Shown here: positions 3,987-64,000 of the stretch, piece after piece
How positions within the stretch are numbered: the stretch's first letter is position 1
Layout of the letters: the number at the start of each line of letters is the position of its first letter
From: Clostridium sp. HBUAS56010
Lineage (GTDB): Bacteria; Bacillota; Clostridia; Lachnospirales; Lachnospiraceae
Assembly (NCBI RefSeq): GCF_007115105.1
Contig: NZ_SULJ01000007.1
Location: forward strand, 131,729 to 195,728
Direction: 5' to 3'
DNA: 64,000 nt
Program-made: the position numbers and the translations under genes
The notes under the pieces: model-generated
Seen by the model: the letters and a program-made list of their open reading frames with translations, nothing else
The model's database searches: none
Told to the model about the DNA's origin: nothing

Positions 3987-3998
3987 AAGGAAAGGGTC

Positions 3999-4045: not shown

Positions 4046-4132
4046 TGTCTGATGTGCCCAGGGAAAAGGTGTATTAGGAGAGGGAAAAAGAGCATAGGAT
4101 AAAGATATACCATTGAATGCAGGAGGAATTGG

Positions 4133-5035: not shown

Positions 5036-5040
5036 TCATA

Positions 5041-5091: not shown

Positions 5092-5103
5092 ATAATCCAT
5101 CTG

Positions 5104-6372: not shown

Positions 6373-6435
6373 AAAATGCCCCTTAATGGAATGGTTATTA
6401 CCAATATATTACACCCTGGGGCAGATGATTACAAA

Positions 6436-6480
6436 AGACCCCGCAGATTTAGAAAAATATGGATTCTGCGGGGAATTTTT
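6436..6480 (-). terminator. Hairpin terminator after the 65-residue gene
   Basis: CCCCGCAGA (6439) pairs with TCTGCGGGG (6465). T runs lie on both sides when read on each strand; the only gene ending here is the minus-strand gene at 6480. Confidence 0.7.
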
Positions 6481-6677
6481 TAGAAAAAGGATGATTTGGA
6501 TTCCTGAAACATGGATTGAACATAATTTCTCATTTCCTGACGGCTTTCAATTGTTCTTGCTCCCTCGATGATGGAGTTTCTCTGAGCATCAGAAAGGTTG
6601 GAGAATCGGTTGAGAATGTTGGAGTGCTGGGCTAATTCCATGGTAAATCCGATTGGAAGTTCATTGTTGTCTATCAT
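6480..6677 (-). CDS. Small conserved hypothetical protein
   Basis: A 65-residue, probably all-helical soluble protein (MIDNNELPIGFTMELAQHSN... SRQEMRNYVQSMFQ). I place the start at the ATG at 6677, eight bases after GAGG on the minus strand; a GTG three codons earlier overlaps the ribosome site and is less likely. Similar short proteins with a DNNxLPxGF start are frequent in Lachnospiraceae genomes, but I know of no function. It precedes the SleC-like gene on the same strand and is separated from it by a terminator. Confidence 0.65.
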   Translation of the reverse strand: MIDNNELPIGFTMELAQHSNILNRFSNLSDAQRNSIIEGARTIESRQEMRNYVQSMFQESKSSFF

Positions 6678-6839
6678 ATTTATCACCTCGCAGCTATTTT
6701 CCCCGAATGAAAGGGAAAGTATACTTTTGAATATTCTTCCAGAATCATGATTGTATAATTATACATTATTAATGGGGAAAGATTTGAAATATTCAAATAA
6801 TATGTATAAAAATTAAAAAAAGAAATACAGAAAAAATAG

Positions 6840-6868
6840 TTGAAAAATGTCACAGGATAATGTATAAT
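6840..6868 (+). promoter_or_regulatory. Sigma A promoter of carAB
   Basis: TTGAAA (6840-6845), 17-base spacer, TATAAT (6863-6868). The leader of about 55 bases contains an inverted repeat, GGCTGA/TCAGCC, near 6881-6898, which could be an operator or a small RNA hairpin. Confidence 0.8.
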
Positions 6869-6930
6869 CTATTCAATTTGGGCTGATATCAGTCAGCCTG
6901 ATAACATAGCATTCAGAAAGGATTGGGACT

Positions 6931-8007: not shown

Positions 8008-11000
8008 TGCCAAAGAATCAGGATATTAAAAAGGTACTCGTTCTTGGCTCAGGTCCGATCATTATCGGCCAGGCAGCAGAATTTGATTATGCCGGAACCC
8101 AGGCGTGCCGCTCCTTGAGAGAGGAAGGTGTGGAGGTTGTTCTTTTAAACTCCAATCCGGCAACCATCATGACAGATAAAGATATTGCGGATAAAGTGTA
8201 CATTGAACCGCTGACTGTTGAAGTGGTAGAACAGCTTATTTTAAAAGAAAAACCAGATAGTGTGCTTCCGACCCTCGGCGGTCAGGCAGGTCTTAATCTT
8301 GCCATGGAGCTGGAAGACAGCGGATTCTTAGAGAAACATCATGTGCGTCTGATCGGAACCACTGCCCTTACGATTAAAAAGGCAGAAGACCGTGAGATGT
8401 TTAAGGAAACCATGGAGAAGATCGGCGAACCGGTTGCTCCTTCTGATATTGTTGAGAATGTAGAAGATGGTCTTAAGATTGCACAGGAGATCGGATATCC
8501 AATCGTGCTTCGTCCTGCTTATACACTTGGTGGTTCCGGCGGCGGAATTGCAGAGAATCCTGCCCAGTGCCGTGAGATTTTAGAGAATGGACTCCGCCTG
8601 TCCCGTGTAGGACAGGTTCTGGTGGAACGCTGCATTGCAGGCTGGAAGGAAATCGAATATGAAGTAATGCGTGACGGAGCAGGGAATGTGATTACCGTAT
8701 GTAATATGGAAAACATTGATCCGGTAGGCGTTCATACCGGAGACAGTATTGTAGTTGCTCCTTCCCAGACTCTTGGAGACAAGGAATACCAGATGCTGCG
8801 TACCTCTGCCTTAAGGATTATCAGCGAACTGGGAATTACCGGAGGCTGTAATGTTCAGTATGCCCTTCACCCGGAGAGTTTTGAATACTGTGTCATTGAA
8901 GTAAATCCTCGTGTAAGCCGTTCTTCTGCACTGGCATCAAAAGCAACCGGATATCCCATTGCAAAAGTTGCTGCTAAGATTGCCCTTGGCTATACTCTTG
9001 ATGAGATTAAGAATGCGGTAACAAAGAAGACTTATGCCAGCTTTGAACCGATGCTTGATTACTGTGTAGTCAAGATGCCCCGCCTTCCATTTGATAAATT
9101 CTTAAGTGCCAAGAGAACGCTTGGAACCCAGATGAAGGCAACTGGAGAAGTTATGAGTATCTGTACCAGTTTTGAAGGCGGACTGATGAAAGCGATCCGG
9201 TCCCTGGAACAGCATGTGGACAGTCTGCTGTCTTATGACTTTACTGGTCTGACAGAGGAAGAACTGACAGAAACCCTTCATCTTGTTGATGACAGAAGAA
9301 TCTGGGTGATTGCAGAAGCACTCCGCAGAGGATTCACTTATGAAACCATTCATGAGATTACAAAGGTTGATGTGTGGTTTATTGATAAACTTGCCATTCT
9401 TGTAGAGATGGAAGATGCTTTGAAAAAAGGACCTCTGACCATTGATCTTTTAAAAGAAGCAAAGCGTCTGGAATTCCCGGATACGGTAATCTCAAAACTG
9501 ACCGGAGTTTCTCAGGAAGAGATTCGTCAGATGAGAAAAGACAATCAGATTGTAGCTGCCTTTAAGATGGTAGATACCTGTGCGGCTGAGTTTGAGGCAG
9601 AGACACCATATTACTATTCCTGCTTTGGAAGTGAGAATGAGGCGGTTCAGACTTCCGGAAGAAAAAAAGTTCTGGTTCTTGGTTCCGGTCCGATCCGAAT
9701 CGGGCAGGGAATTGAATTCGACTTCTGTTCCGTTCACAGCACCTGGAGTTTCAGCAAAGAAGGATATGAGACAATTATTGTCAACAACAATCCCGAGACA
9801 GTAAGTACGGATTTTGATATTGCAGATAAGCTTTATTTTGAGCCTTTGACTCCGGAAGATGTGGAGAGCATTGTTGATATTGAAAAACCAGACGGAGCAG
9901 TGGTGCAGTTTGGCGGACAGACAGCAATTAAGCTGACAGAAGCACTGATGAAGATGGGCGTGCCCATTCTTGGTACGGCAGCAGAAGATGTGGACGCAGC
10001 AGAGGACCGGGAATTATTTGATAAAATTCTGGAAGAATGCCAGATTCCAAGACCGGCAGGTCAGACTGTATTTACAGCAGAAGAGGCGAAGAAAGTTGCC
10101 AATGAGCTGGGATACCCTGTACTGGTAAGACCTTCCTATGTACTGGGCGGACAGGGAATGCAGATTGCCATCTCCGATGAAGATGTGGAAGAATTTATCG
10201 GAATCATCAATCAGATTGCTCAGGAACACCCGATTCTGGTTGATAAATACATTATGGGAAAAGAGATTGAAGTAGATGCGGTCTGTGACGGGGAAGATAT
10301 ATTAATTCCTGGTATCATGGAACACATTGAACGTGCAGGTGTCCATTCAGGGGACAGTATATCAGTGTACCCGGCTCAAAGCATTGATGAGGAAATTAAA
10401 GAAAAGCTGGTTGAGTATACCAGAAGACTTGCAAGAGCCCTTCACGTAAAAGGAATGATTAACATTCAGTTCATCGTAAGCGGAAGTGATGTTTATGTCA
10501 TCGAAGTGAATCCACGTTCTTCCCGTACGGTTCCTTATATCAGCAAAGTGACCGGAATTCCAATCGTTCCGTTGGCAACAAGAGTGATCTGCGGACATAC
10601 GATCAGGGAACTTGGTTATGAGCCTGGGCTTCAGCCGGAAGCAGATTATATTGCTGTGAAGATGCCGGTATTCTCCTTTGAAAAGATTCGTGGTGCTGAT
10701 GTAAATTTGGGACCAGAGATGAAATCCACAGGAGAGTGTCTTGGAATTGCAAAGACATTTAATGAAGCACTGTACAAGGCATTTGCCGGCGCAGGAATTA
10801 AGATGCCAAAGCATAAAAACATGATTATTACGGTGAAGGAATCTGACAAAGAAGAGATCATTGACATTGCAAGAAGATTTCAGGCACAGGGATACAAGAT
10901 TTTCTCCACCTCAGGTACTGCCAAAGTCCTGAATCAGAATGGAGTGAAAGCTCTTATGGTTAGAAAGCTGGAGCAGGAATCACCCAATCTTTTAGATCTG

Positions 11001-11210
11001 ATTCTGGGTCATGAGATTGATCTGGTCATTGATACACCACCTCAGGGTGCGGACCGGAGCAGAGATGGATTTGTTATCAGAAGGAATGCGATTGAAACAG
11101 GTGTAACGGTTCTGACTTCTTTGGACACAGCAGCAGCGTTAGTGACCAGTATGGAAAACAGGGCAAAAGAACTGACTCTCATTGACATTGCACAGGTAAA
11201 GAATATATAA
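8007..11210 (+). CDS. carB: Carbamoyl-phosphate synthase large subunit
   Basis: A 1067-residue full-length CarB. It shows the two homologous halves: the first begins KVLVLGSGPIIIGQAAEFDY and the second KVLVLGSGPIRIGQGIEFDF near residue 555. Each half carries an ATP-grasp domain (RPAYTLGGSGGG and RPSYVLGGQGMQ), one for carboxyphosphate and one for carbamate phosphorylation. The C-terminal MGS-like domain (FSTSGTAKVL, VIDTPPQG) is the usual site of allosteric control by UMP and ornithine. It is translationally coupled to carA and followed by a small unknown gene 13 bases on. Confidence 0.97.
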   Translation: MPKNQDIKKVLVLGSGPIIIGQAAEFDYAGTQACRSLREEGVEVVLLNSNPATIMTDKDIADKVYIEPLTVEVVEQLILKEKPDSVLPTLGGQAGLNLAMELEDSGFLEKHHVRLIGTTALTIKKAEDREMFKETMEKIGEPVAPSDIVENVEDGLKIAQEIGYPIVLRPAYTLGGSGGGIAENPAQCREILENGLRLSRVGQVLVERCIAGWKEIEYEVMRDGAGNVITVCNMENIDPVGVHTGDSIVVAPSQTLGDKEYQMLRTSALRIISELGITGGCNVQYALHPESFEYCVIEVNPRVSRSSALASKATGYPIAKVAAKIALGYTLDEIKNAVTKKTYASFEPMLDYCVVKMPRLPFDKFLSAKRTLGTQMKATGEVMSICTSFEGGLMKAIRSLEQHVDSLLSYDFTGLTEEELTETLHLVDDRRIWVIAEALRRGFTYETIHEITKVDVWFIDKLAILVEMEDALKKGPLTIDLLKEAKRLEFPDTVISKLTGVSQEEIRQMRKDNQIVAAFKMVDTCAAEFEAETPYYYSCFGSENEAVQTSGRKKVLVLGSGPIRIGQGIEFDFCSVHSTWSFSKEGYETIIVNNNPETVSTDFDIADKLYFEPLTPEDVESIVDIEKPDGAVVQFGGQTAIKLTEALMKMGVPILGTAAEDVDAAEDRELFDKILEECQIPRPAGQTVFTAEEAKKVANELGYPVLVRPSYVLGGQGMQIAISDEDVEEFIGIINQIAQEHPILVDKYIMGKEIEVDAVCDGEDILIPGIMEHIERAGVHSGDSISVYPAQSIDEEIKEKLVEYTRRLARALHVKGMINIQFIVSGSDVYVIEVNPRSSRTVPYISKVTGIPIVPLATRVICGHTIRELGYEPGLQPEADYIAVKMPVFSFEKIRGADVNLGPEMKSTGECLGIAKTFNEALYKAFAGAGIKMPKHKNMIITVKESDKEEIIDIARRFQAQGYKIFSTSGTAKVLNQNGVKALMVRKLEQESPNLLDLILGHEIDLVIDTPPQGADRSRDGFVIRRNAIETGVTVLTSLDTAAALVTSMENRAKELTLIDIAQVKNI

Positions 11211-11223
11211 GGATTGTGATATT

Positions 11224-11535
11224 ATGATATTTTCCATCAACAAACAGGCGGTAGAGATAAAAACCAGATTTGAGAAAGCACCTCTGACTTCTCCTAATGA
11301 AGCATGTGCAGCTATGGGAATGCTCTATAAGATATATGGTCTTTCTGTTCCTCAAAAAAGGGATACAGTAAGCCAGATGAAAGAGGATTTCCATGCAGCG
11401 GTAAAAGATCTTCCCGTACCCTCGGAGTTTGCTGCAAAGATCATAACACTTCTTGATGACTATTATAAGGAAGATGTCGTTACCGATGAGATTTATGAAC
11501 TGTTAAAATACAGTTATGACGAGCAGAAATCCTAA
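11224..11535 (+). CDS. Hypothetical protein downstream of carB
   Basis: A 103-residue soluble protein I do not recognise. It is mixed alpha/beta by eye, with a start MIFSINKQAVEIKTRFEKAP and a helix-rich C-terminal half (FAAKIITLLDDYYKEDVVTDEIYELLKYS). It lies 13 bases after carB, with ATATT before the ATG and GGATTGTGAT as a weak ribosome site, and is closed by the terminator at 11548, so it belongs to the car operon. No metal-binding cysteines, signal peptide or membrane segment is visible. Confidence 0.7.
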   Translation: MIFSINKQAVEIKTRFEKAPLTSPNEACAAMGMLYKIYGLSVPQKRDTVSQMKEDFHAAVKDLPVPSEFAAKIITLLDDYYKEDVVTDEIYELLKYSYDEQKS

Positions 11536-11547
11536 ATGTAAAACAAG

Positions 11548-11590
11548 AAAAAGGCCGGAGCAGGAGCGTATCCTGGTTCCGGTCTTTTTC
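11548..11590. terminator. Bidirectional terminator between car operon and cotJC
   Basis: GGCCGGA (11553) pairs with TCCGGTC (11577), with an inner CAGGA/TCCTG stem, A-rich on the left and TTTTT on the right. Confidence 0.85.
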
Positions 11591-11594
11591 CTTG

Positions 11595-12215
11595 TTATTG
11601 CCCCTGTTTTTTCACAAACTGTTTATCAAATTCCGGGTTAAAATAATAAAAGTTTTTGGAATCCAGATCGGATTTGATCTTTTCCAGCGCCTCTCCGAAT
11701 CGCTGGAAATGCACCACTTCTCTTGCACGAAGAAATTTAAGCGGCTCTCTTATTTCTGGATTAGGAATAATACGGATCAGATTGTCGTAAGTGGTTCTGG
11801 CTTTCTGTTCTGCGGCAAGATCTTCAGTTAAATCGGCAATGGCACAGCCTTTTGACTGAAACTCACAGGCATTAAATGGAACACCTGCTGCGGCAGTAGG
11901 CCAGATTCCTGTGGTATGGTCTACATAGTAAGCATCAAAGCCCGCAGTTTTTGCCTGCTCTGCTGTGAGGTTTTTTGTAAGCTGGTAGACAATGGAACAG
12001 ATTATTTCAAGATGTCCCAATTCCTCTGTCCCAATGTCTGTTAAAAGTCCGCCGACTTCTTTGCATGGCATGGTGTATCTTTGGGAAAGATATCGCATAG
12101 ATGCAGCTAATTCTCCGTCAGGGCCGCCAAACTGTGTGATGATAAGAGAAGCTGTCTTGGGACAGGTTTCTGTGATATTTACTGGAAATTGAAGTCTTTT
12201 TTCATAATTCCACAT
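11595..12215 (-). CDS. cotJC: Spore coat protein CotJC, manganese catalase family
   Basis: A 206-residue protein of the CotJC/manganese catalase family. The ferritin-like fold shows its metal-ligand motifs in GTEELGHLEII, DLAAEQKARTTYDNL and LRAREVVHFQRF, giving the paired Glu/His sites expected for a di-manganese centre. In spore formers these proteins are part of the inner coat and may remove peroxide. It is the last gene of cotJABC on the minus strand; its ATG overlaps the cotJB stop. Catalase activity is inferred from relatives such as clostridial CotCB/CotD. Confidence 0.93.
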   Translation of the reverse strand: MWNYEKRLQFPVNITETCPKTASLIITQFGGPDGELAASMRYLSQRYTMPCKEVGGLLTDIGTEELGHLEIICSIVYQLTKNLTAEQAKTAGFDAYYVDHTTGIWPTAAAGVPFNACEFQSKGCAIADLTEDLAAEQKARTTYDNLIRIIPNPEIREPLKFLRAREVVHFQRFGEALEKIKSDLDSKNFYYFNPEFDKQFVKKQGQ

Positions 12216-12511
12216 TATAAGGTACCTCCTTCCCAGGGCAGAGGACCATCGGTCCAGGTAAAATGCTTCTGCCCGGCATATTTTGTATTGGTCTGGCTTT
12301 TGTTATTGGTATCCGGGCATACACAATCTACGGTGAGAGGTTCAAAATTCTCTGCAAAAGTTTGTAAAAGCTGTTTTTTCTGTTCTTTTGCCTGAGAGAA
12401 TGCTGTCAATGCCTGCTCATCAAGAGGGTGAGTATCCAGATATAACGTTAAGTCGCTTACGGTAAAGCTGATTTCTGTTAATTGCTTTAAAAGACTGTTT
12501 CGATCTGTCAT
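12215..12511 (-). CDS. cotJB: Spore coat protein CotJB
   Basis: A 98-residue protein with the CotJB pattern: an N-terminal helix (LLKQLTEISFTVSDLTLYLDTHP), DEQALTAF, and a C-terminal WTDGPLPWEGG. The final WPWEGG-like tail is typical for the family. CotJB is a small coat component whose stability depends on CotJC and CotJA. The ATG at 12511 overlaps the end of cotJA and the TAA end overlaps cotJC, so the three are tightly coupled. Confidence 0.92.
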   Translation of the reverse strand: MTDRNSLLKQLTEISFTVSDLTLYLDTHPLDEQALTAFSQAKEQKKQLLQTFAENFEPLTVDCVCPDTNNKSQTNTKYAGQKHFTWTDGPLPWEGGTL

Positions 12512-12708
12512 TATTTGTCACCTCCTGTTGCGTAAAAAGGGAGATTAAGACTTGGGAAGATCGTCCCGTTTTTTAATGCTGTTACAGGATCATATGGCTG
12601 TTCCCAAGGCTGCATGGGTATGGTTGCAATCGCCAGTTGTACGGACGCACTTGGAGTTGCAGGAATTCCTTTTGAAGAGTCACAACCGCATGATGGGCAT
12701 GAATTCAT
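12511..12708 (-). CDS. cotJA: Spore coat associated protein CotJA
   Basis: A 65-residue CotJA with the family core PLFVP-like segment replaced by LAIATIPMQPWEQPYDPVTALKNGTIFPSLNLPFY, the proline-rich stretch that marks this family. The N-terminus carries two CxxC-like cysteines (CPSCGCDSSKG), a common addition in clostridia. It is the first gene of cotJABC. ATG at 12708 follows AAAGGAG on the minus strand. Expression is expected in the mother cell under sigma E; I could not identify a convincing sigma E promoter in the 200 bases upstream. Confidence 0.88.
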   Translation of the reverse strand: MNSCPSCGCDSSKGIPATPSASVQLAIATIPMQPWEQPYDPVTALKNGTIFPSLNLPFYATGGDK

Positions 12709-12909
12709 AATAACACTCCTTTCAGTTCAATCATTTATGATAAATGCTTCCTTTTTAGTATTAACGGTCAAATGAAAAATACCTTACAAAAATTCTCCCA
12801 TTTAAACCACCTTCATGTTATTGTAATAAATGGAAAAATGAAATATAATAAAGTAGAGTGTTCGGATAAGGAAGAATAGGAAAAGAAAAAAAGACGGGAG
12901 AGCAGAAGT

Positions 12910-34706: not shown

Positions 34707-35945
34707 TCACAGATGTTTTTCTTTTCCGCTTACATGATCGACAATCGTATCCCTCTTTAAAAAGCTGGCTCTCATTACACTGTCCGTTCCGAATTTGTTC
34801 CGGATATGATCGACTGCTTTTTCCATCTCTTTCATTTTTTTGGATTGTTCTGATTCAAAAAGGTTTAACTGGCTATACCCATCTTCTGTAATCTTTGTAG
34901 TTCTGACTCCTATGAGACGTAAAGGAGTCTTATCCCAGAATTCTTTTAATAAGGAGCAGGCATTGTCGTAAAGAACTGTGGTGGAATCCGTAGGACTGTT
35001 CAGGGTCATCTGATGGGACTGAGTGTGAAAATCCCAGTCCTTGATCTCCACAGACACACAGTCACACTGAACCTTGTCGTGGCGTAGTCTTGCTCCTACA
35101 GTTTCACATAGGGAAAGGAGAACCTGACAGGCGACATCGTAGTCATCCACATCTCTGGATAAGGTGGTGCTGTTGCCATAACCTTTATTCACTGGTTCCC
35201 GTTCTTCCACTGGAGAATGATCAATGCCACAGGCATAATCATGTATCAGCAACGCATATTTTTCCCCTAACAGATGCTTTAAATGATTGGCGTTGCAGGC
35301 AGCCAGTTCACCAATTGTGTGGATTCCAATGCTCTGCAGCTTTTTTTCGGCAGAATGACCTACAAAAAATAATTCCCTTATGGGAAGGGGCCACATCTTT
35401 TGCGGAACTTCATGGGAAAATAGTGTGTGACAGAGATTGGGCTTTTTAAAGTCAGATGCCATCTTTGCCAGCAGTTTATTAGGCGCAATTCCGATATTGA
35501 CTGTAAAACCAAGCTGGTTTAAGACTTCTTCTCTGATCTGGTTGGCAACCGTGAGGGGAGTGCCAAAAAGATGAATGGTAGAGGTCATATCCAGAAAAGC
35601 TTCATCAATACTGAATTTTTCAATATCAGGGGTGTATTTGGATAACAGGTTCATAAGCTGCCTGGATTTCTCCAGATATATCTGGAAATGGGCAGGCACA
35701 ACAGTGAGGTTGGGACATTTCTTTAAGGCATGGGCAATGGGTTCTCCAGTGGAAATTCCGTATTTTTTTGCCGGCGTTGACTTGGCAAGGACAATTCCGT
35801 GTCTGGAGGAAGCATCGCCGCCTACTGCAGAAGGAATGGTGCGCAGATCCAGAGCGTCAGGGTCCTGCTCCAGCCGGGCTACGGATTCCCAGCTTAAAAA
35901 TGCAGAATTTACATCAATATGAAAAATCAGTCGTTGAGATTCCAT
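34707..35945 (-). CDS. dinB: DNA polymerase IV (Y family), chromosomal copy
   Basis: A 412-residue translesion polymerase. Catalytic acids are Asp11 (FHIDVNSAF), and Asp114/Glu115 (FSIDEAFLDM); the palm also shows PSAVGGDASSRHGIVLAKS. Helix-hairpin-helix and little-finger domains follow. QLNLFESE near the C-terminus is a beta-clamp binding motif. The promoter is controlled by a LexA box placed between -35 and -10. A second, island-borne paralogue lies at 60439 and shares the same layout. This copy has the base composition of its neighbours and looks native. Confidence 0.95.
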   Translation of the reverse strand: MESQRLIFHIDVNSAFLSWESVARLEQDPDALDLRTIPSAVGGDASSRHGIVLAKSTPAKKYGISTGEPIAHALKKCPNLTVVPAHFQIYLEKSRQLMNLLSKYTPDIEKFSIDEAFLDMTSTIHLFGTPLTVANQIREEVLNQLGFTVNIGIAPNKLLAKMASDFKKPNLCHTLFSHEVPQKMWPLPIRELFFVGHSAEKKLQSIGIHTIGELAACNANHLKHLLGEKYALLIHDYACGIDHSPVEEREPVNKGYGNSTTLSRDVDDYDVACQVLLSLCETVGARLRHDKVQCDCVSVEIKDWDFHTQSHQMTLNSPTDSTTVLYDNACSLLKEFWDKTPLRLIGVRTTKITEDGYSQLNLFESEQSKKMKEMEKAVDHIRNKFGTDSVMRASFLKRDTIVDHVSGKEKHL

Positions 35946-56241: not shown

Positions 56242-58803
56242 ATGAGGGAGAGAAGGGGCAGAAAAAAGCAATGGAAAAAAGGAATCTCTTTACTGATGAC
56301 AGTTATGATGGCAGTATTGCTGGCAGCCGTTCCAACAACGATAAGAGCTGAACCAACAGACCAGGTAAGTTTACAGATCACAGATCCCAGTGGTTTATTA
56401 AAAACATCATCCTATGGCTCGGTCATGACGCTGACCCAGTCAGCAGTAGATGGTTCCATGCCTCAAAATGCCAGTGACCCAGGGATAAATGTGAGTTATG
56501 TGGGTTTTCCCTACACCAGACAGGCTCATGTCATGAGTCTTGATTTAAAGATCAAAGATTATTCAATTACAGGAACCGAAGCAGCAAAGACAGGACTTTT
56601 TGTAGGTGTGTTCCAGAATCCTGAAAAAGGAGGACTGTTTGCAAGTCTTGGTTTTCGGGGATACAATGGGGATATTGGGTCCGATTCTTTATCCGGATAC
56701 TGGATTAAGGGAACTGGAAATGCAGGAAATGGAAGTCCCAAATATACCGTAAGCCAGGGAACCAGATACCATGTTGTATTTGAAAAGAATGATGCCGGAT
56801 ATCTGGCTGTTTTCACCAATATGAATAATAAGGTAACCGATAAAAAGCAGTTTAAATCATCGGAAATGCTTTTAACTCCTGATGAAGAAGTATCTTATGG
56901 ACTTGCACTGATTGGAGTATCTGCTGAAATGAAAAATCTGATGCTGAAAGATGAGAATGGGGCTGTGCTTTATGACCAGAATCGCACATTTAAAGAGGAA
57001 GGAATTCCTCCTGTTGTAAGCCGTATCACAAGAACGGCTGTTACCCAGGACCGCAGCAGCATTCAGTTATCATGGAAGGGAAAAGGAGCGGTGGGAGATG
57101 GCAGATACGGAATAGAGCTATCAAAAGATGGAGGAAAGACATATAAGTTGCTGGAGGAAACAGAGAAAAGATCCTATATTTATCCAGTAACAGAAAATGG
57201 AAGATATTTGTTTAAAGTCTATGGCCTATGCAAAGGAGAAAAGACGACACCTGTTTTTTCCAGAATGATTGAGTATGTTTTGCCTCTTCCTGCACCGGTG
57301 GTTCATGCAGAAAGTATGGATGGCGCAATAAAACTGGACTGGGATGCGATTCCAGAGGCCTCCTCATATGAGATATACCGGTCAAAGGCAAAATCAGGAA
57401 CTTATGATTTTATTGCCTCTGTTACCGGAGATAGTTATATGGATACGGCAGAGAATGAGCAGCCCTATTATTATCGGGTGATAGCCAAAGATCTTACCAA
57501 TTCAAGCAATCCCTCAACCGAAGTTTTTAGTATGGCAACTGCCGGGCATGTGGGAACGTATGCGTATGGAACGGAAGCAGCAGTTTTCACCATCAGTAAA
57601 GAGTCAAATGACACAATTCTGTCTGAGAAACGTGTGAGTCTGAAAGGAAGTGTGGACCGCACAGGCGAAGTTTGGCTGACTGTCAATGGAAATACGGTAA
57701 AAAGCGATGAGATAAAGGCTGGTAAAAAGTTTAATTTCCGTTTTTCCATCCAGAATGGACCCAATGATGTGGTATTGTACCATCAGTCAGAAGATGGGCG
57801 TATTTCCCGTAAACCATTTCATTTTGTTGGGCTGGAACGGTATGATATGATGGTGGATTCGTCTTATGATGGGCCTGACGGACAGACAAAGAGCGGAATC
57901 CCCACTTATCATACAGTACAGGCAGCGGTATCAGCAGTGCCGGCAGACAATCAGAAACAGGTAGTTATCTTGATCCGTAATGGAAATTATTATGAAAAGG
58001 TAGATGTTACATCACCCTATATCAGTCTGATTGGAGAAGACAGTAAAAAAACCATATTGTATTTTGATAAGGCGAGTGGGAGCAAACAGCCGGACGGGAA
58101 GGAATATGGAACGGGAGGAAGTTCCAGTGTTACGGTTTCTTCATCGGCTTTAGGATTTACTGCGGAAAATATGACCATCGCAAATACCTTTGATTATGTA
58201 AATTCTCCAGTAAAGGGAAAGCAGGCGGTCGCCTTTTATAATAAGGCAGATCAGAGCGTCCTTACCAATGTGAGATTTTTGGGATATCAGGATACGCTTT
58301 ATGTGGATGGAGGTGGTAAGTCCGGTGCCAGACAATATTACCGTCAATGTTATGTGGAGGGCAATGTAGACTTTATTTTCGGTAAGGCACAGGCGGTATT
58401 GGAAGACTGTGATATCGTATCCCTGCTTCCAGGTTATATTACAGCACCAAGTACAGAGCCAACGGGTGAGATTGGTTTTGTATTTCTGGATTGCAGATTA
58501 TATGCGGCAGAAGGAGTTGGGGATCAGACGGTATATCTTGGGCGGCCATGGGGGGCGGCGGCTTCATCTGTTTATATTAACTGCTATATGGGAGCGCAGA
58601 TTTCTGATAAAGGGTATACGGATATGGGAAGCAACCCGTATCAGAATGCCCGTTTTGCAGAGTACGGTTCTTATGGGCCTGGATTTCATGTGACAGACAG
58701 CCGGATTCAGTTGTCCAAAGAGGAAGCAGGTACTTATACCTTAGAAAGAATTCTGGGGACAGAAATGTGGGGATTTTTGTCGCAGGGCAGAGAAAGTCGG
58801 TAA
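56242..58803 (+). CDS. Secreted pectinesterase with accessory beta domains
   Basis: An 853-residue exported enzyme. A signal peptide (ISLLMTVMMAVLLAAVPTT) is followed by an N-terminal beta-sandwich region to about 250, fibronectin III-like domains at about 255-435 (SRITRTAVTQDRSSIQLSW, KLDWDAIPEASSYEIYRS), a further beta domain, and the pectinesterase beta-helix from about 550 to 830. Catalytic marks are GYQDTLYVDG and GNVDFIFGKAQ with the two Asp residues, and GRPWGAAASSVYINCY. It removes methyl esters from pectin. No wall anchor is visible. ATG at 56242 lies after AGGAGAGGGG. Terminator at 58816. Confidence 0.9.
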   Translation: MRERRGRKKQWKKGISLLMTVMMAVLLAAVPTTIRAEPTDQVSLQITDPSGLLKTSSYGSVMTLTQSAVDGSMPQNASDPGINVSYVGFPYTRQAHVMSLDLKIKDYSITGTEAAKTGLFVGVFQNPEKGGLFASLGFRGYNGDIGSDSLSGYWIKGTGNAGNGSPKYTVSQGTRYHVVFEKNDAGYLAVFTNMNNKVTDKKQFKSSEMLLTPDEEVSYGLALIGVSAEMKNLMLKDENGAVLYDQNRTFKEEGIPPVVSRITRTAVTQDRSSIQLSWKGKGAVGDGRYGIELSKDGGKTYKLLEETEKRSYIYPVTENGRYLFKVYGLCKGEKTTPVFSRMIEYVLPLPAPVVHAESMDGAIKLDWDAIPEASSYEIYRSKAKSGTYDFIASVTGDSYMDTAENEQPYYYRVIAKDLTNSSNPSTEVFSMATAGHVGTYAYGTEAAVFTISKESNDTILSEKRVSLKGSVDRTGEVWLTVNGNTVKSDEIKAGKKFNFRFSIQNGPNDVVLYHQSEDGRISRKPFHFVGLERYDMMVDSSYDGPDGQTKSGIPTYHTVQAAVSAVPADNQKQVVILIRNGNYYEKVDVTSPYISLIGEDSKKTILYFDKASGSKQPDGKEYGTGGSSSVTVSSSALGFTAENMTIANTFDYVNSPVKGKQAVAFYNKADQSVLTNVRFLGYQDTLYVDGGGKSGARQYYRQCYVEGNVDFIFGKAQAVLEDCDIVSLLPGYITAPSTEPTGEIGFVFLDCRLYAAEGVGDQTVYLGRPWGAAASSVYINCYMGAQISDKGYTDMGSNPYQNARFAEYGSYGPGFHVTDSRIQLSKEEAGTYTLERILGTEMWGFLSQGRESR

Positions 58804-58815
58804 TATTTGAAAAAT

Positions 58816-58855
58816 AAAAAGCCACAAAGTTTTTTCGACTTTGTGGCTTAATTTA
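58816..58855 (+). terminator. Terminator after the pectinesterase gene
   Basis: AAGCCACAAAG (58819) pairs with CTTTGTGGCTT (58839) around TTTTTTCGA. It is the last feature with host composition. Confidence 0.85.
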
Positions 58856-58881
58856 GCAGGGGAAGAGGGGCTCGAACCCAC
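58854..58881 (-). repeat. tRNA 3'-end-like sequence, candidate attachment site
   Basis: Read on the minus strand this holds GGGTTCGAGCCCC, the T-arm signature, then TCTTCCCCTGCTA as an acceptor-like end. No matching 5' half is present nearby, so it is not a whole tRNA. Integrases of islands commonly recombine at tRNA 3' ends and leave such a copy. Confidence 0.5.
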
Positions 58882-58883
58882 TG

Positions 58884-58956
58884 TTGGGCACAAAAACGTG
58901 ATAGAATAAGGAGGTTGTGACACTTCATCCATTATTGGGCACAATCTTGGGCACAA
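58884..58956. repeat. Three direct copies of TTGGGCACAA
   Basis: Copies at 58884-58893, 58935-58944 and 58947-58956. The last two overlap the fossil integrase end. They resemble the arm-type repeats that tyrosine integrases bind near attachment sites. Confidence 0.5.
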
Positions 58957-58990
58957 AACCAATGGCAACATTAATCCGGATAAAACAAAT
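58925..58990 (-). pseudogene. Possible fossil of an integrase C-terminus
   Basis: On the minus strand, a 21-codon stretch ends at TGA (58925-58927) and reads ...RINVAIGFVPKIVPNNG. The FVPxxVPN-type ending is typical of tyrosine recombinases that reach to their attachment site. An in-frame stop (58991-58993) ends the frame upstream, and nothing recognisable precedes it, so only the tail remains. Confidence 0.4.
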
Positions 58991-59048
58991 TTATATATAA
59001 ATACATTTATTATATTATCATTATTAAGTGTACTTATATATAAATTTG
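58986..59048. repeat. 15-base inverted repeat, A+T-rich
   Basis: CAAATTTATATATAA (58986-59000) and TTATATATAAATTTG (59034-59048) are perfect inverted copies with 33 bases between. Each arm contains a palindrome. It may be a binding site or a hairpin before the first island gene. Confidence 0.45.
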
Positions 59049-59125
59049 TATTTTCTGGTATACAATCACTCGATTTATGATATAATCTATACGTTGAATA
59101 ATATCATATAAGGAGGCAATATATC

Positions 59126-59359
59126 ATGGCAAGAGGAGTTCGTAAGACACCAATAGAAAAACTCAATGAGGAACTCATTAAAACAAAAGATGAAATAGTA
59201 AGCCATAAGGATGCCATTAAATCGCTTGAAGAAAAATGTAAACAATTAGAGAAAGAATTGAAATTAGAAGAATTAAAAGAGTTGTCCAATGTGCTAGAGG
59301 ATAACAATATTTCAATTACTGAATTAAAAGACTTGATTGCAAATAAAGATAAAAACTGA
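59126..59359 (+). CDS. Small coiled-coil protein
   Basis: A 77-residue charged protein with a basic start (ARGVRKTPIEKLNEELIK) and a heptad pattern through ALKSLEEKCKQLEKELKLEELK-like residues 25-50, predicting a coiled coil. It has a strong AGGAGG and a TATAAT at 59081. Similar short Lys/Glu-rich proteins are found in mobile elements, but no function is known to me. It is the first gene of the island and is closed by the hairpin at 59374, then 240 bases without a gene precede the lexA box. Confidence 0.7.
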   Translation: MARGVRKTPIEKLNEELIKTKDEIVSHKDAIKSLEEKCKQLEKELKLEELKELSNVLEDNNISITELKDLIANKDKN

Positions 59360-59373
59360 ATCTTAATATAAAT

Positions 59374-59400
59374 TAGGCTAGTCTCATGACTGGCTTATTT
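59374..59400 (+). terminator. Terminator after the coiled-coil gene
   Basis: GGCTAGTC pairs with GACTGGCT (one G-U) around TCAT, followed by TATTTTATTT. The stretch 59401-59640 shows a CCCTGT/ACAGGG hairpin near 59533-59548 but no supported gene. Confidence 0.7.
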
Positions 59401-59642
59401 TATTTAGTATCACATAAGAAAAACAGCCCCTTGTACTTTGACCGGTACGGGATATGCTAGCAGACGGAATATTTATGCTAAAACATATCCTGGTATTGCT
59501 GACTTATATGGATAAGTTAAAAAAATAGCACGACCCTGTAGCAACAGGGCGTAAGATATCACCTTGTATATGTATGATCTCTTTATAATCCAATATAACA
59601 CATATTACTATGAAAATCGATAGAAAATAATATTAAAAAACA

Positions 59643-59681
59643 GAACATATGTTTGATTTTTGCTCCGAGTTATGTTATGCT
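59643..59681 (+). promoter_or_regulatory. lexA promoter with LexA box
   Basis: GAACATATGTTTG (59643-59655) matches the Gram-positive LexA site and overlaps the -35 TTGATT (59653-59658); 17 bases on lies TATGCT (59676-59681). It would give autoregulation of lexA. An ATG inside the box is therefore not a start. Confidence 0.82.
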
Positions 59682-59714
59682 AAATATGCTTCATTAAAAA
59701 TTGGAGGTGATCAC

Positions 59715-60335
59715 ATGAATACACTCACTAAAAAACAGCAATTGGTACTAGATTATATTAAGCAATCAATTTTAAAAAATGGATACCCTCCAACCGTGAG
59801 AGAAATTGCCACTGAAATTGGAGTAAAATCTGCATCGACCGTACAAAGGCATATAGAGGTATTGATAGAAAAAGAATATATGAGAAGAGATCCAACAAAG
59901 CCCAGAACCATTGAGATTATTGATGACTGCTTTAATCTTACCCGCAGAGAGGTCGTGAATGTCCCTGTATTAGGAACAGTCGCAGCCGGTCAGCCTCTTT
60001 ATGCTGAGAAAAATATAGAGAATTACTATCCGATTCCTTCTGATTTTCTTCCCAATGAAGAAACTTTTATGTTAAAGGTAATAGGCAACAGCATGGTTAA
60101 CGCAGGCATATTGGAAGGAGATCAGATTATAGTTAAGATGACATCGGAAGTAAAAAACAATGACATTGTTGTTGCTCTTATAGATGATATTGTCACGATA
60201 AAACGTTTTTTTAAAGAAGATGGACACTATAGACTTCAACCAGAAAACGATTCTATGGAACCGATTATTGTAGACCGCTTGAAGGTTTTAGGAAAAGTTA
60301 TTGGACTGTTTCGGAAAGGTATACACAATATATAA
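59715..60335 (+). CDS. lexA: LexA repressor, island copy
   Basis: A 206-residue SOS repressor. The N-terminal winged helix (residues 1-65) has PTVREIATEIGVKSASTVQRHI. Self-cleavage should occur at Ala91-Gly92 (VAAG/QP); the catalytic dyad is Ser126 (GNSMVNAG) and Lys163 (IVTIKRF). RecA-triggered cleavage would release SOS genes. ATG at 59715 follows GGAGGTGATCAC; the frame upstream enters the LexA box. It stands directly before the second dinB, and both have boxes, so it probably governs this cassette. Whether the host carries another lexA is not visible here. Confidence 0.94.
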   Translation: MNTLTKKQQLVLDYIKQSILKNGYPPTVREIATEIGVKSASTVQRHIEVLIEKEYMRRDPTKPRTIEIIDDCFNLTRREVVNVPVLGTVAAGQPLYAEKNIENYYPIPSDFLPNEETFMLKVIGNSMVNAGILEGDQIIVKMTSEVKNNDIVVALIDDIVTIKRFFKEDGHYRLQPENDSMEPIIVDRLKVLGKVIGLFRKGIHNI

Positions 60336-60389
60336 AACATAAAATTAATTAGGGAAGCAGAAATGCTTCCTATAATTTCCACTATTAAA

Positions 60390-60403
60390 CGAACATACAT
60401 TCG
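60390..60403 (+). promoter_or_regulatory. LexA box before the island dinB
   Basis: CGAACATACATTCG (60390-60403), one half-site base from a perfect palindrome. A TATAAT lies at 60406-60411, three bases on, so a bound repressor would block the promoter. Confidence 0.75.
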
Positions 60404-60438
60404 ATTATAATGTATATAATATAGTTGGAGGTGATGTT

Positions 60439-61701
60439 TTGCAAAAGGTAATTTTTCATATTGACGTAAACTCTGCATTTTTGAGTTGGGAAGCAGTATA
60501 TAGACTCTATCACTTAAGAGGAACATTAGATTTAAGAGATATTCCGTCTGCTGTAGGAGGGGATGTATCTAAGAGACATGGCATAATACTCGCTAAAAGC
60601 ATACCTGCTAAAAAATATAAAATACAAACGGGTGAGCCAGTAACGGACGCTATAAGAAAATGTCCCGATCTAGTAATAGTACCACCAAATTATAACTTGT
60701 ATCAGAAATCGTCCCAGGCGTTTGTTGACATTATAAAAGAATATAGTCCGACCGTCGAGCAATACTCTATAGACGAAGTGTTTGTAGACATGACAGAGAC
60801 AATTAATTTATTCGGTAATCCAAAAGATGTTGCGGATAATATCAGAGAAAGAGTTCGAAAAGAATTGGGTTTTACCATAAATATTGGAATATCAAGCAAT
60901 AAGGTATTAGCAAAAATGGCATCGGATTTTAAAAAGCCCAATTATACTCATACCTTGTGGCTTGATGAAATTAAGGATAAAATGTGGATATTGCCCGTAT
61001 CTGATTTGTTTTTTGTTGGTAGAGCGACTACTAATAAACTAACCAATCTTGGAATTAAAACAATTGGTGAATTAGCACAGACCGATTTAAAAACATTAAA
61101 AGCACACTTTGGTAAGCATGGTGAAGTAATATGGTCATTTGCGAACGGCATTGATTTTTCAGCGGTAGAACCAGTCCCTCCACCGAATAAGGGGTATGGT
61201 AATAGTACAACGATTTCTTTTGATGTGATAGATGCGCAAACAGCTAAACTTGTATTACTATCTCTATCAGAGACGGTATCTGCAAGACTAAGAGCAGATG
61301 ATGTAAAAATCAAAGTAGTATCAGTTGGAATCAGAGATTATAATCTTAGCTATTACAGTCATCAAAAGAAACTTGATGCGGCAACAAATATAACACGAGA
61401 GATCTATGAGTCTGCGTGTCGAGTATTTGATGAAGCATGGAACAAAATACCCATAAGGCATCTAGGAATTCACACCAGCCAAGTTGTATCCGAAGAACCC
61501 AGACAGCTATGTTTGTTTGATGAAGTAGATTACGAAAAGTTGGGGAAATTAGATAAAACAATAGATGATATTCGTAAAAGGTTTGGCGTGGATTCTATAA
61601 TAAGAGCAAGTTTCGCCGTTCCAAATAGAATAGATCATATGAGTGGCGGTATAAGCAGAGAAAAAAGAACAGTTGATTATGACAAACAAAATGTATTATA
61701 G
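60439..61701 (+). CDS. dinB: Y-family DNA polymerase (DinB/Pol IV type), island copy
   Basis: A 420-residue translesion polymerase paralogous to the chromosomal copy at 34707. Catalytic acids are Asp9 (FHIDVNSAF) and Asp112/Glu113 (YSIDEVFVDM); PSAVGGDVSKRHGIILAKS and the little finger are present, and QLCLFDEV is a beta-clamp motif. The TTG start is seven bases after GGAGGTGATG; an out-of-frame ATG nearby leads to a stop. It overlaps nothing but is followed after ten bases by the unknown 103-residue gene, then Ku and ligase, so the four form an operon under the LexA box. Confidence 0.92.
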   Translation: MQKVIFHIDVNSAFLSWEAVYRLYHLRGTLDLRDIPSAVGGDVSKRHGIILAKSIPAKKYKIQTGEPVTDAIRKCPDLVIVPPNYNLYQKSSQAFVDIIKEYSPTVEQYSIDEVFVDMTETINLFGNPKDVADNIRERVRKELGFTINIGISSNKVLAKMASDFKKPNYTHTLWLDEIKDKMWILPVSDLFFVGRATTNKLTNLGIKTIGELAQTDLKTLKAHFGKHGEVIWSFANGIDFSAVEPVPPPNKGYGNSTTISFDVIDAQTAKLVLLSLSETVSARLRADDVKIKVVSVGIRDYNLSYYSHQKKLDAATNITREIYESACRVFDEAWNKIPIRHLGIHTSQVVSEEPRQLCLFDEVDYEKLGKLDKTIDDIRKRFGVDSIIRASFAVPNRIDHMSGGISREKRTVDYDKQNVL

Positions 61702-61710
61702 GTGATAGAT

Positions 61711-62022
61711 ATGGGAATCTTTGGAATTGGAACAAATACTAATGATATAGATAGTGGAGAAATCAGAGGAAAAATGTACCACATTGCATGTAAGGTATGG
61801 TTTACTGCCACTTGCAGTCCAAGACCGCTAAGTTTTAAATTTGAAGGTGATGACGGGATAATTCAAAGTGTAACCGATATAAATATTAAAAGCAGTGAGG
61901 ATAAAAATTACTCTGGTATTACATCAAAGGAGTTCATGTGTGAAGCAATAATTGGAGGAATCATGCGGAATTTCAAATTGATATTTTTTATAGAGTCATG
62001 TAAATGGATAATGACAATATAA
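61711..62022 (+). CDS. Unrecognised protein in the dinB-ku operon
   Basis: A 103-residue protein I do not recognise. It starts MGIFGIGTNTNDID and has a central KVWFTATCSPRPLSFKFEGDDG, a likely beta-strand pattern, and ends EAIIGGIMRNFKLIFFIESC. No catalytic motif, membrane helix or signal is visible. The ATG at 61711 follows AGGTGATAGAT closely. Its place directly after the polymerase and before ku suggests a link to repair. A resemblance to small proteins found next to dinB in Actinobacteria (DUF6504) crossed my mind, but I cannot confirm it. Confidence 0.6.
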   Translation: MGIFGIGTNTNDIDSGEIRGKMYHIACKVWFTATCSPRPLSFKFEGDDGIIQSVTDINIKSSEDKNYSGITSKEFMCEAIIGGIMRNFKLIFFIESCKWIMTI

Positions 62023-62077
62023 TTGTTGCATAATTATCCCTTAATATTATCATAATAATTGTAAGTGAGGTGATAAT

Positions 62078-62854
62078 ATGGCAATTGCACATAAAAGCGC
62101 TATATCAATTAATGTTATTTATGTTCCCGTGGATTTGTATAAGACAACCAGAGATACAAGTATTTCATTTAATCAATTATGTAAGGATACGCACGAAAGA
62201 GTAAAATATAAAAAGATATGTCCTTCATGTAATAAAGAGGTTACAAGTGATGACATAATAAAAGGTTATGAGTATCAGAAGGGTAGCTATATTACCTTTA
62301 CGCCAGACGAACTGGAAAGGATTAAGTCCGAAAAGGATAAAACGCTTCATATAGAATCCTTTGCAAAAATGAGCGAAATAGATCCAATTTATTATGATCA
62401 AAATTATTATTTGATACCGGCTCCTGGAGCAGAAAAATCGTATGAACTTTTGCGTCAAGCATTATTATCACAGAAAAAGGTAGCCGTGGCAAAAACTGTC
62501 CTCACGACTAAAGAAGAATTACTCGTTCTATACCCTACGAAAGATGTTATAGTGGGTAAGATGCTATTTTATCAAGAGGAAATTCAACCAATACCTAAAA
62601 CTATTCCCAAAGTTGAATTAACTAAGCAGGAATTAGATTTGACTAAATCTTTAATAGAGGCAATGACACAAAAATTTGATATTGCGGTCTATTACGATGA
62701 ATACCAACAGAAATTACGTGCGGCAATAGCGTCCAAAATCGCAGGAAACGAGATCGTCAGCGTTCAAGAAAGTGTCCCGAATAATATTATTGATTTGGTG
62801 GAAGCGTTGCAGACTTCGTTGAATATGGCGAAAAACAAAAGCAATAAAGCATAA
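62078..62854 (+). CDS. ku: Ku DNA end-binding protein
   Basis: A 258-residue bacterial Ku. Visible family marks are ISINVIYVPVDLY at the start, HERVKYKKICPSCNKEVTSDDIIKGYEY with the Cys48/Cys51 pair, and YYDQNYYLIPAPGAEKSYELL. Bacterial Ku forms a homodimeric ring on broken ends and recruits ligase. The C-terminus ends without a long lysine-rich extension. The gene has GAGGTGATAAT before the ATG, and its stop overlaps the ligase start (TAATG). Ku is uncommon in Lachnospiraceae, which supports acquisition. Confidence 0.93.
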   Translation: MAIAHKSAISINVIYVPVDLYKTTRDTSISFNQLCKDTHERVKYKKICPSCNKEVTSDDIIKGYEYQKGSYITFTPDELERIKSEKDKTLHIESFAKMSEIDPIYYDQNYYLIPAPGAEKSYELLRQALLSQKKVAVAKTVLTTKEELLVLYPTKDVIVGKMLFYQEEIQPIPKTIPKVELTKQELDLTKSLIEAMTQKFDIAVYYDEYQQKLRAAIASKIAGNEIVSVQESVPNNIIDLVEALQTSLNMAKNKSNKA

Positions 62855-63789
62855 TGGATATATTTGAGAAAAAAGGTATTAGACCTATGCTAATATCTGA
62901 AAGAGTAGATCCGTATGATGATGAAGAATCGATCTTTGAGTTTAAGATTGATGGGAATAGATGTATAGCGTATAATGATAAATACTCTTCTGATCTGCGA
63001 AACAAGCGGGACATTAAGATATTGCCTAGATTTCCTGAGTTGGATTTCTTGTATAAGAACTGTCGTCACAAATGTATATTAGATGGAGAATTAAATGTCT
63101 TAATAAATGGTAAGCCGGATTTTTATGAGGTGCAGAAAAGGTCAACAATGACAGATCCATTTAAAATAGAGTTGTCATATAAGAGACGTCCAGCTAATTT
63201 TGTTGCTTTTGACATAATTTATTATAAAGACAAGTTGGTTACAAATCTGTCCTTAATCGAACGAAGGAAAATTTTAGAAGAGGTAGTATCTGAAAACAAT
63301 ATATTATCCAAGTCTAGATATATAGATACAAATGGAACCGCCTTGTTTAAACTAGCTGAAGAATATGGATTTGAAGGAGTTGTTGGTAAGAAAAAGGCAA
63401 GCCAATATTGGTTTGGAAAAGAAACAAAAGAATGGAGTAAAGTAAAGGTTATTAAAGACGATGATTATATCTGTATAGGCTACTTTCCGCCTAGTGAGAA
63501 TAACATGACAAGTTTAATATTGGCAAAATATAATACAGAAAATAAACTAGTCATAACCAATCGTGTCTCTTTAGGGGTTAGCGTTTCTAAACTAATACAG
63601 TATGGCGTAAAAAGATCATATTGCCCGATAGAAAATCTAAAGGGTTATGATAACGCAATCTGGATAGAGCCAATGGTATGTACGATAGAATACATGCCTT
63701 CAAATAAACATGGATTACGTCAAGCAACATTTAAGGGAATGAGAAACGATAAATTACCAGAAGAATGTAGAATAGAAAACGATTTATAA
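62854..63789 (+). CDS. ATP-dependent DNA ligase (LigD ligase-domain type)
   Basis: A 311-residue ligase with only the adenylation and OB domains of LigD. Motif I is FKIDGNR with nucleotide lysine Lys31, motif III ILDGEL (75-80), motif IIIa FDII (119-122), motif IV EGVV (174-177), motif V WSKVKV (194-199). There is no polymerase/primase domain and no phosphoesterase domain. It joins ends bound by Ku. Translation is coupled to ku by a one-base overlap. The hairpin at 63837 follows. Confidence 0.93.
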   Translation: MDIFEKKGIRPMLISERVDPYDDEESIFEFKIDGNRCIAYNDKYSSDLRNKRDIKILPRFPELDFLYKNCRHKCILDGELNVLINGKPDFYEVQKRSTMTDPFKIELSYKRRPANFVAFDIIYYKDKLVTNLSLIERRKILEEVVSENNILSKSRYIDTNGTALFKLAEEYGFEGVVGKKKASQYWFGKETKEWSKVKVIKDDDYICIGYFPPSENNMTSLILAKYNTENKLVITNRVSLGVSVSKLIQYGVKRSYCPIENLKGYDNAIWIEPMVCTIEYMPSNKHGLRQATFKGMRNDKLPEECRIENDL

Positions 63790-63836
63790 CAAATCAGTTT
63801 TGTGTTACAGAAATAAGATAAAAGCCTGTTTTAATT

Positions 63837-63889
63837 AAATAGCGAATGGGGGGGGCGGGTAGAGGATAGTCCTCTCATTCGCTATTTAT
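63837..63889 (+). terminator. G-rich hairpin at the end of the cassette
   Basis: AAATAGCGAATG (63837-63848) pairs with CATTCGCTATTT (63876-63887). Inside lie an AGAGGA/TCCTCT stem and a run of eight Gs followed by CGGG. No clear U run follows, so termination is only likely. Confidence 0.55.
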
Positions 63890-63892
63890 ATA

Positions 63893-64000
63893 TTATATAC
63901 GTTTCAACACATTATCAGCAATCCACGAATGCCCGAAATCGTTCGGGTGAATCGAATCCGCACTTACCAGGTAATTATCATCGGGATCATAGTCGGATTG
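63893..64000 (-). CDS. SGNH/GDSL-type hydrolase, C-terminal fragment (gene runs off window)
   Basis: On the minus strand a 35-residue frame runs from the edge to TAA at 63893-63895. It reads ...DNYLVSADSIHPNDFGH..., with the Asp and His of block V of SGNH hydrolases (DxxHPN). Only the end is present, so substrate and start are unknown. It faces the ligase gene, and the hairpin lies between them. Its membership of the island cannot be judged. Confidence 0.55.
   Translation of the reverse strand, partial: QSDYDPDDNYLVSADSIHPNDFGHSWIADNVLKRI

Follow-up and report, generated by a model that had tools for sequence, protein, structure and literature searches.

Why do a lexA gene, a gene for a Y-family DNA polymerase and genes for non-homologous end joining (NHEJ) stand in one row, what carries them, and what might they do together? 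These questions are raised by the end of a 64,000-nt stretch of contig NZ_SULJ01000007.1 of Clostridium sp. HBUAS56010 (this whole stretch is called the window below), where six genes on the + strand, k77, lexA, dinB, u103, ku and lig, lie between positions 58854 and 63889. An earlier reading, made from the sequence alone, had seen lexA, dinB, a 103-residue gene, ku and a ligase gene in the same direction, and our gene calls and family matches agree with it. We propose that this cassette is probably an attL-proximal, SOS-derepressed operon of a large temperate Lacrimispora phage, with predicted functions in lesion bypass and ligase-only end joining.

The cassette lies at the edge of a large prophage

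The left end of the cassette is marked by a 25-bp attachment (att) core at 58855..58879 (- strand), which repeats the 3' end of tRNA-Trp(cca) letter for letter and represents the left edge of the prophage; the island of the sequence-only reading had started at 58854, one base off this core. In the genome of the strain (G000; 3.95 Mb in 66 contigs, 99.85% complete), the 24-base att pattern has one other exact place, within an intact tRNA-Trp(cca) gene (G000:C7:1842-1865), where the second copy of the 25-bp core (C7:1842-1866) adjoins the gene of a 417-aa phage integrase (PF00589, 95.8 bits; phrog_1). Since the tRNA-Trp core is duplicated and its copy on contig C7 stands beside an integrase gene, the window holds attL and C7 holds attR. 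The window cuts the prophage, 15.8 kb more of which lie on the same contig, with opposite-strand genes that include those of minor-tail, tail-fibre-like and tape-measure proteins; the phage tail genes run towards the cassette, convergent with it. The mobile element that had been supposed earlier to carry the set is borne out as a large prophage, which has an integrase as well as attL and attR and of which the cassette forms one edge. A loose genomic island or an integrative and conjugative element is ruled out by the att repeats, the integrase and the phage structural genes.

A relative, Clostridium sp. 12(A) (genome G321, locus L037), contains a complete prophage of about 139 kb in one contig, with 39-bp repeats at 292252 and 431656, about 139.4 kb apart. 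The right repeat lies at the start of a phosphoribosyltransferase gene and is adjoined by the integrase gene. This prophage encodes terminase, portal, DNA polymerase, DnaB helicase and a primase-type zinc finger, as well as an NAD-dependent ligase and an anaerobic ribonucleotide reductase. In the circular phage, integrase and cassette would flank attP. We infer that the host belongs to the Clostridia genus Lacrimispora.

A 26-bp stretch at 58909-58934 is 96% shared with positions 9270-9294 of locus L005, just inside the left ends of both prophages. Moreover, there are TTGGGCAC repeats close to the att core of the window, and attR on C7 has GGGCAC repeats in its vicinity. The shared stretch and these repeats are perhaps arm sites of the integrase.

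Composition of the cassette

The lexA gene (59715..60335, +) encodes a phage LexA of 206 aa from the ATG at 59715, which matches TIGR00498 at 226.6 bits (cut-off 111). It is followed by dinB (60439..61701, +; TTG start), encoding a Y-family polymerase of 420 aa with IMS and IMS_C domains, in which we recognise what we take to be the SIDE motif and a clamp-binding-like motif, QLCLF. Next come u103 (61711..62022, +), whose 103-aa product belongs to a DinB partner family, and ku (62078..62854, +), which encodes a bacterial Ku of 258 aa with the core domain identified by TIGR02772 (260 bits, cut-off 150). The dinB-u103-ku-lig genes are tightly packed in one direction, and the stop codon of ku shares one base with the start codon of lig (TAATG).

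The product of lig (62854..63789, +) is a LigD-type ATP-dependent ligase of 311 aa, with nucleotidyltransferase and OB domains only and an intact KIDGNR motif. It matches PF01068 at 88.6 bits, above the cut-off of 26.2, whereas TIGR02779 (E 1e-48, 166 bits) and PF04679 (22.8 bits) stay under their cut-offs of 228 and 27.5, respectively; the ligase domain of Mycobacterium tuberculosis LigD (1vs0) aligns with it end to end. The domain search found neither a LigD polymerase nor a 3'-phosphoesterase domain in these 311 aa, and ligD_pol gave no match anywhere in the genome of the strain. For these reasons, the set encoded in the window is, as predicted from its domains, a non-conventional, ligase-only NHEJ set, and lig is not a LigD.

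The remaining gene, k77 (59126..59359, +), lies between att and lexA, was missing from the list of the sequence-only reading and encodes a small charged protein of 77 aa; in all 8 loci where it was found, it occupies the att side of the cassette. Neither k77 nor u103 matched any family at usable significance in Pfam, NCBIfam or PHROG, and no SRAP domain was found in the window cassette.

A second copy and relatives in other prophages

A second prophage of the same genome, on contig C6, carries k77-lexA-dinB-u103-SRAP-ku-lig followed by tail-type genes; its SRAP protein matches PF02586 at 134.5 bits. An exact search of the genome for the other end of this prophage, carried out with the C6 tRNA end, returned the C6 copy only. 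The two Ku genes and two PF01068 ligase genes of the genome all lie within the two prophage cassettes, and the genome search gave no other Ku or PF01068 ligase.

Among IMG/VR contigs, L013 (135 kb) contains the full set, L016 (the phage of G321) contains u103-ku-lig, and L014, L015 and L017, which are other phage-type contigs, contain ku-lig without dinB. L019 has dinB-u103-SRAP and neither ku nor lig, and L020 has lexA-dinB-u103-lig without Ku. Further prophage-type loci lack Ku too: L156 contains lexA-u103-lig, L161 lexA-dinB-u103-SRAP with a ligase remnant, and L164 u103-lig; L154 has k77, a transposase-like HTH_38 protein, dinB and u103, and neither ku nor lig. At L157, u103 stands alone near phage-like genes and host carbamoyl-phosphate synthase genes. 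Because u103 or Ku served as the bait for all these loci, frequencies among them carry no meaning beyond the examples themselves.

Ku lies beside u103 in four distinct prophages (window, C6, L013 and L037), and the order lexA, dinB, u103, SRAP, ku, lig is kept among whatever genes are present. The question of whether the neighbours vary freely, raised by the sequence-only reading, thus has a divided answer: the content varies between prophages and the gene order is constant. A fixed, inseparable operon is ruled out by the varying content of L020, L156, L161, L164, L154 and L019.

In three loci, the ligase gene is directly behind u103 without Ku (L020 3378-4313, L156 11819-12751 and L164 8071-9048). 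The prophage cassette of L156 (genome G416, 3817-12751) lies about 1 kb from tRNA-Val(gac), and its u103-lig is 6 kb from a ku gene in the opposite direction. The decayed cassette of L031/L177 (genome G402, 1827-3854), a lig-ku-dinB copy, lies at most 5 kb from tRNA-Val(gac). Each of the two is a few kb from a stand-alone ku-lig pair, and such closeness is a possible route for ku-lig exchange.

Origin of ku and lig

The window and C6 cassettes align over 2.58 kb at 87% DNA identity, up to the end of u103; past this point the identity drops to 69% for ku and to 63% for a part of lig. The ratio of non-synonymous to synonymous substitutions (dN/dS) between the two copies was 0.15 for k77, 0.15 for lexA, 0.08 for dinB and 0.05 for u103, and these low values indicate that the four genes are kept functional by purifying selection. 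For ku and lig the window-C6 pair was saturated; the comparison of the C6 and L037 Ku genes gave a dN/dS of 0.04.

A total of 85 Ku and 86 ligase proteins were collected, and identical rows were used once (73 Ku rows). In the tree, the window Ku joins that of L017, a phage-type Ku of Konateibacter (99/84), and the Kus of C6, L013 and L037/L016 group among Lacrimispora genes. In tests that postdate the sight of the 73-row Ku tree and of the first ligase tree, and whose groups follow gene context, a single clade of the four cassette Kus was rejected by the approximately unbiased test (p-AU 1e-6; 40 rows, 33 distant Ku rows having been dropped), and so was a single clade of the seven cassette ligases (p-AU 6e-54, 44 rows). 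The ligase trees had 45 and then 44 rows after identical and distant rows were dropped, and the long row L053 was left out of the 44-row tree. The window DinB is sister to that of C6 (100/99). Of the eight prophage-type DinBs in the tree, six (window, C6, L161, L013, L020 and L154) group at 85/99, and those of L037 and L019 were unplaced. At L013, a Lacrimispora-type Ku is paired with a window-type ligase.

As one-clade trees are rejected for both Ku and ligase and the DinBs are sisters, ku-lig has at least two origins, and these phylogenies indicate at least two events in which genes for end joining were gained or replaced behind dinB-u103. We infer that ku-lig is an exchangeable module behind a dinB-u103 core.

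LexA boxes and transcription

The LexA boxes ahead of lexA and dinB, as well as the coupled ends of ku and the ligase gene, had been pointed out from the sequence alone and are both confirmed. The box of the lexA promoter, AGAACATATGTTTG (59642..59655), has identical letters in L020 and L037 and is one base off in L005; that of the dinB promoter, CGAACATACATTCG (60390..60403), is identical in L005, L020, L037, L019 and L156 (no strand was assigned to either box). In the 5-kb cassette, two boxes were found both at up to one mismatch and at up to two mismatches, as compared to 0.01 and 0.51 expected from 100 Markov shuffles. The whole window contains one further site at up to one mismatch, CGAAAATATGTTCG at 35973, upstream of the host dinB (34707-35945, - strand). 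The product of this gene is distant from the cassette DinBs in the tree, and no u103 match was found nearby. Similar boxes precede a chromosomal lexA of the host (L007) and the host dinB.

A terminator scan of 58800-64000 listed five terminator-like sites, among them a stem after k77 (59374..59397, +), and no + strand site in the interval from dinB to the end of lig. Promoter-like matches were at chance level (29 found vs. 24.8 ± 4.7 expected). A strong stem-loop (63836..63888, no strand assigned; -31.4 kcal/mol, z -5.2) separates lig from the convergent phage genes; it is not among the sites listed by the terminator scan and may end transcription. Since no terminator was found in between and the boxes of the cassette precede lexA and dinB only, the natural reading is that ku and lig would be co-induced with dinB. 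Self-cleavage of LexA involves an Ala-Gly site, a Ser and a catalytic Lys, and all three, read by eye, are kept in the window LexA. From these features, the cassette is probably switched on by DNA damage.

The genome of the strain has four LexA genes, two of which lie on contig C1, apart from the cassettes; the second LexA on C1 (L010, G000:C1:4763-5374), read by eye, is without the Ala-Gly cleavage site. In the 160-kb stretch with the complete G321 prophage, three sites occur at up to one mismatch, two of which are the lexA and dinB boxes. The third, CAAATATATGTTCG (G321:C2:378220, L188), lies about 0.5 kb upstream of a gene for a 680-aa sigma-factor-like protein and, judging from this position, is possibly linked to induction.

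The phage LexA might instead be mainly a regulator of lysogeny and lytic growth, with dinB-u103-ku-lig as accidental neighbours through mosaicism. In phage GIL01, host LexA and a phage LexA homologue together form the lytic switch (PMC6182141), and both the divergence of the L037 and C6 LexAs at the cleavage site and the third site of the G321 prophage would fit such a role. We consider it very unlikely, given that it is the lexA and dinB boxes that the prophages have in common and that all four separate prophages with Ku beside u103 keep the order lexA-dinB-u103-(SRAP)-ku-lig.

Occurrence of the association

In 397 genomes of the family, u103 was found in 80 and Ku in 30, at 31 places. At 4 of the 31 Ku places (window, C6, the G321 prophage and a row of G164), a u103-type gene is no more than 6 kb from Ku, a count from which contig breaks could hide others. 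At the G164 place (L232, 4786-10225), ku is followed by a full-length ligD (811 aa), SRAP, dinB and a u103-like gene. Within the family, u103 comes after dinB in 27 of 30 loci examined. Among 25 genomes of the genus, 24 contain u103 and 16 contain Ku; besides G000 and G321, the latter are 14 genomes with 14 full-length Ku places, 11 of which were examined with their flanks. In these, ku was beside a ligase gene in 11 of 11 and beside u103 in 0 of 11. In a set of 70 Ku loci of genome contigs, with flanks of up to 9 kb and u103 sought with a close profile only, dinB was present in eight (including the L037 prophage and one remnant) and SRAP in three. No match of u103 was found in the public phage set at E 1e-3, and single u103 members searched against viral contigs returned the known loci and two partial matches, or nothing.

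This distribution bears on the idea that the cassette is lysogenic-conversion cargo, by which the prophage gives ku-less hosts NHEJ and a spare mutasome, raising survival and mutation. The Ku genes of G000 and G321 are in prophages only, whereas G416, G405 and G399 have Ku elsewhere and a prophage copy without Ku (the Ku contig of G399 is only 8.5 kb). Furthermore, the genes are located at the att edge, a frequent place for cargo genes. These are five genomes only, however, and the decayed ku-bearing cassette of G402 (L031/L177) is in a ku-positive host. Cargo also overlaps strongly with the SOS operon proposed above, from which it differs only in the beneficiary, and on its own it appears quite unlikely.

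Comparison with known systems

The sequence-only reading knew of no described system with exactly this composition. This does not hold in kind, considering the SOS DinB operons described by Aravind et al. (2013; PMC3765255). The passages of that paper concerned with them report DinB with a small beta-rich partner (stand-alone ImuB-C), LexA, optional SRAP, and optional Ku with an ATP-dependent ligase, and share the idea of SOS-linked mutagenesis plus end joining. In the same passages the operons are bacterial and phages are mentioned for SRAP only, whereas here a large prophage has the genes at its att end, together with a lexA of its own. No significant match links u103 to the ImuB-C of those operons here. 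A search of Creative Commons-licensed PMC full text, a scope that leaves subscription papers and preprints outside, gave no prophage with lexA, dinB, ku and ligase together among the matches listed. The kind of cassette is known in bacteria; new are the prophage carrier beside att, the phage LexA and the repeated recruitment of end joining.

The u103 protein is predicted to be all-beta with a C-terminal Trp. For six members no Pfam match was found at E 10, PHROG gave none, no similar solved structure was found below E 0.4, and the fold comparison gave no clear match. We took DUF6504 to be equivalent to ImuB-C: hhalign of u103 against it gave a probability of 0.3%, under the best shuffled-column control, and the best E value of the DUF6504 model against 29 u103 rows was 0.007. 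In 14 control genomes DUF6504 matched only in Caulobacter vibrioides, and 2 of 30 DUF6504 loci contained dinB, as judged by a close DinB profile only, so that this comparison of contexts carries little weight. Short proteins of 81-95 aa behind dinB (five rows) join u103 (probability 98%, E 6e-15). Stand-alone ImuB-C is described in PMC3765255 as all-beta with a conserved C-terminal Trp, and u103 is perhaps, on these predicted features, the stand-alone ImuB-C of the literature. The arrangement also resembles that of YqjH/UvrX-type polymerases, where, according to PMC6511836, a Y-family polymerase is followed by a small beta protein, mostly in Gram-positive bacteria, ImuB-C stands beside YqjH polymerases mostly in Clostridia, and YolD is the partner of the polymerase UvrX. 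Unlike these partners, u103 has no Pfam match (YolD is PF08863) and no significant match to the DUF6504 profile.

Phages of the SPbeta group are likewise large temperate phages of Bacillota (about 130 kb), and in one of them, BUCT083, SRAP adjoins a LigD-type ligase. PMC8270828 places SOS boxes ahead of the divergent yolC and yolD. Unlike the window prophage, phages of this group gave no Ku match at E 1e-5, and in the 3-kb flanks of the BUCT083 SRAP-ligase pair the annotation, in which many proteins are hypothetical, names neither dinB nor ku. The chromosomal minimal ku-lig of Lacrimispora and other Clostridia has the same two genes, whose ends are coupled or close together, and likewise encodes a short ligase; the Kus of L005 and L016 fall among these genes in the tree. 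The chromosomal pairs stand alone, apart from dinB-u103, and most have no neighbour that matches the 58 phage reference proteins.

A phage-encoded Ku homologue, with about 30% identity to the window Ku, occurs in the mycobacteriophages Omega and Corndog. Published work links Corndog Ku to circularisation, the role proposed for these proteins being genome circularisation (PMC4351075, whose relevant section mentions neither a ligase partner nor an SOS operon), and counts 11 phages with Ku (PMC8136500); in our tblastn search Ku was found in 81 of 50,697 phage records, 80 of which are mycobacteriophages. In an analogous way, Ku and the ligase could protect phage ends, by circularising the injected genome or resealing cuts made by host defence, with dinB and lexA as passengers or regulators. 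Such a role would agree with the recircularisation of phage DNA to which mycobacteriophage Ku is thought to contribute, with the related ku-lig genes without dinB in the phage-type contigs L014, L015 and L017, and with the second ligase beside the NAD-dependent ligase of the G321 phage, which suggests a special role. It is nevertheless rather unlikely, as the cassette is on the strand opposite to the neighbouring tail genes, beside att and with LexA boxes, and as Ku is not kept by every prophage of the group.

Proposed function of the cassette

The SOS-derepressed operon that we favour would work as follows. In the lysogen, phage and host LexA would hold the operon low. Upon damage, activated RecA would cleave the phage LexA together with the host LexA, and read-through transcription from dinB would deliver u103, ku and lig. 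DinB with u103 would copy past lesions, and Ku would bind double-strand ends and recruit the minimal ligase; because no LigD polymerase was found, gap filling would fall to DinB or to some other polymerase. Such repair would serve the host chromosome, the prophage and induced phage DNA alike.

Several points weigh against this operon model. In the cassette scan no LexA box was found directly before ku, which may have a separate promoter, and at L232 the boxes are only before dinB, downstream of ku-ligD-SRAP. In the genus, the norm is a ku-lig pair alone, away from dinB, and the full cassette is rare, being present in 1 of the 70 Ku loci of genome contigs (L037). A Ku-dependent role leaves unexplained the presence of lig without Ku in three prophage-type loci (L020, L156 and L164). 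Read by eye, the cleavage site is Ala-Ser in the C6 LexA, and both the Ala-Gly site and the catalytic Lys are lost from the L037 phage LexA. These alterations make SOS cleavage of the phage LexA doubtful in the relatives, and, to judge from the L037 residues, simple SOS cleavage cannot hold for every member of the cassette family.

A bolder version, possible and yet doubtful, is that the phage family keeps a slot for break and lesion tolerance beside attP under its own LexA. There, DinB-u103 would fill gaps for Ku and the ligase in an SOS-inducible, deliberately error-prone joining that protects prophage and host, with ku present chiefly where the host is without ku.

The distribution of NHEJ among bacteria is patchy, and how it spread is a matter of debate. 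PMC7719229 infers many gains of NHEJ and reports it on plasmids, and word-usage statistics detected none in chromosomal regions gained by horizontal transfer. In the strain studied here, all the Ku and PF01068 ligase genes that were found belong to two prophages, and in relatives ku and lig of different origins occupy one phage slot. This offers a concrete carrier for the horizontal spread of NHEJ in Clostridia, and makes testable both the SOS control of end joining and the replacement of the missing LigD polymerase by a Y-family polymerase.

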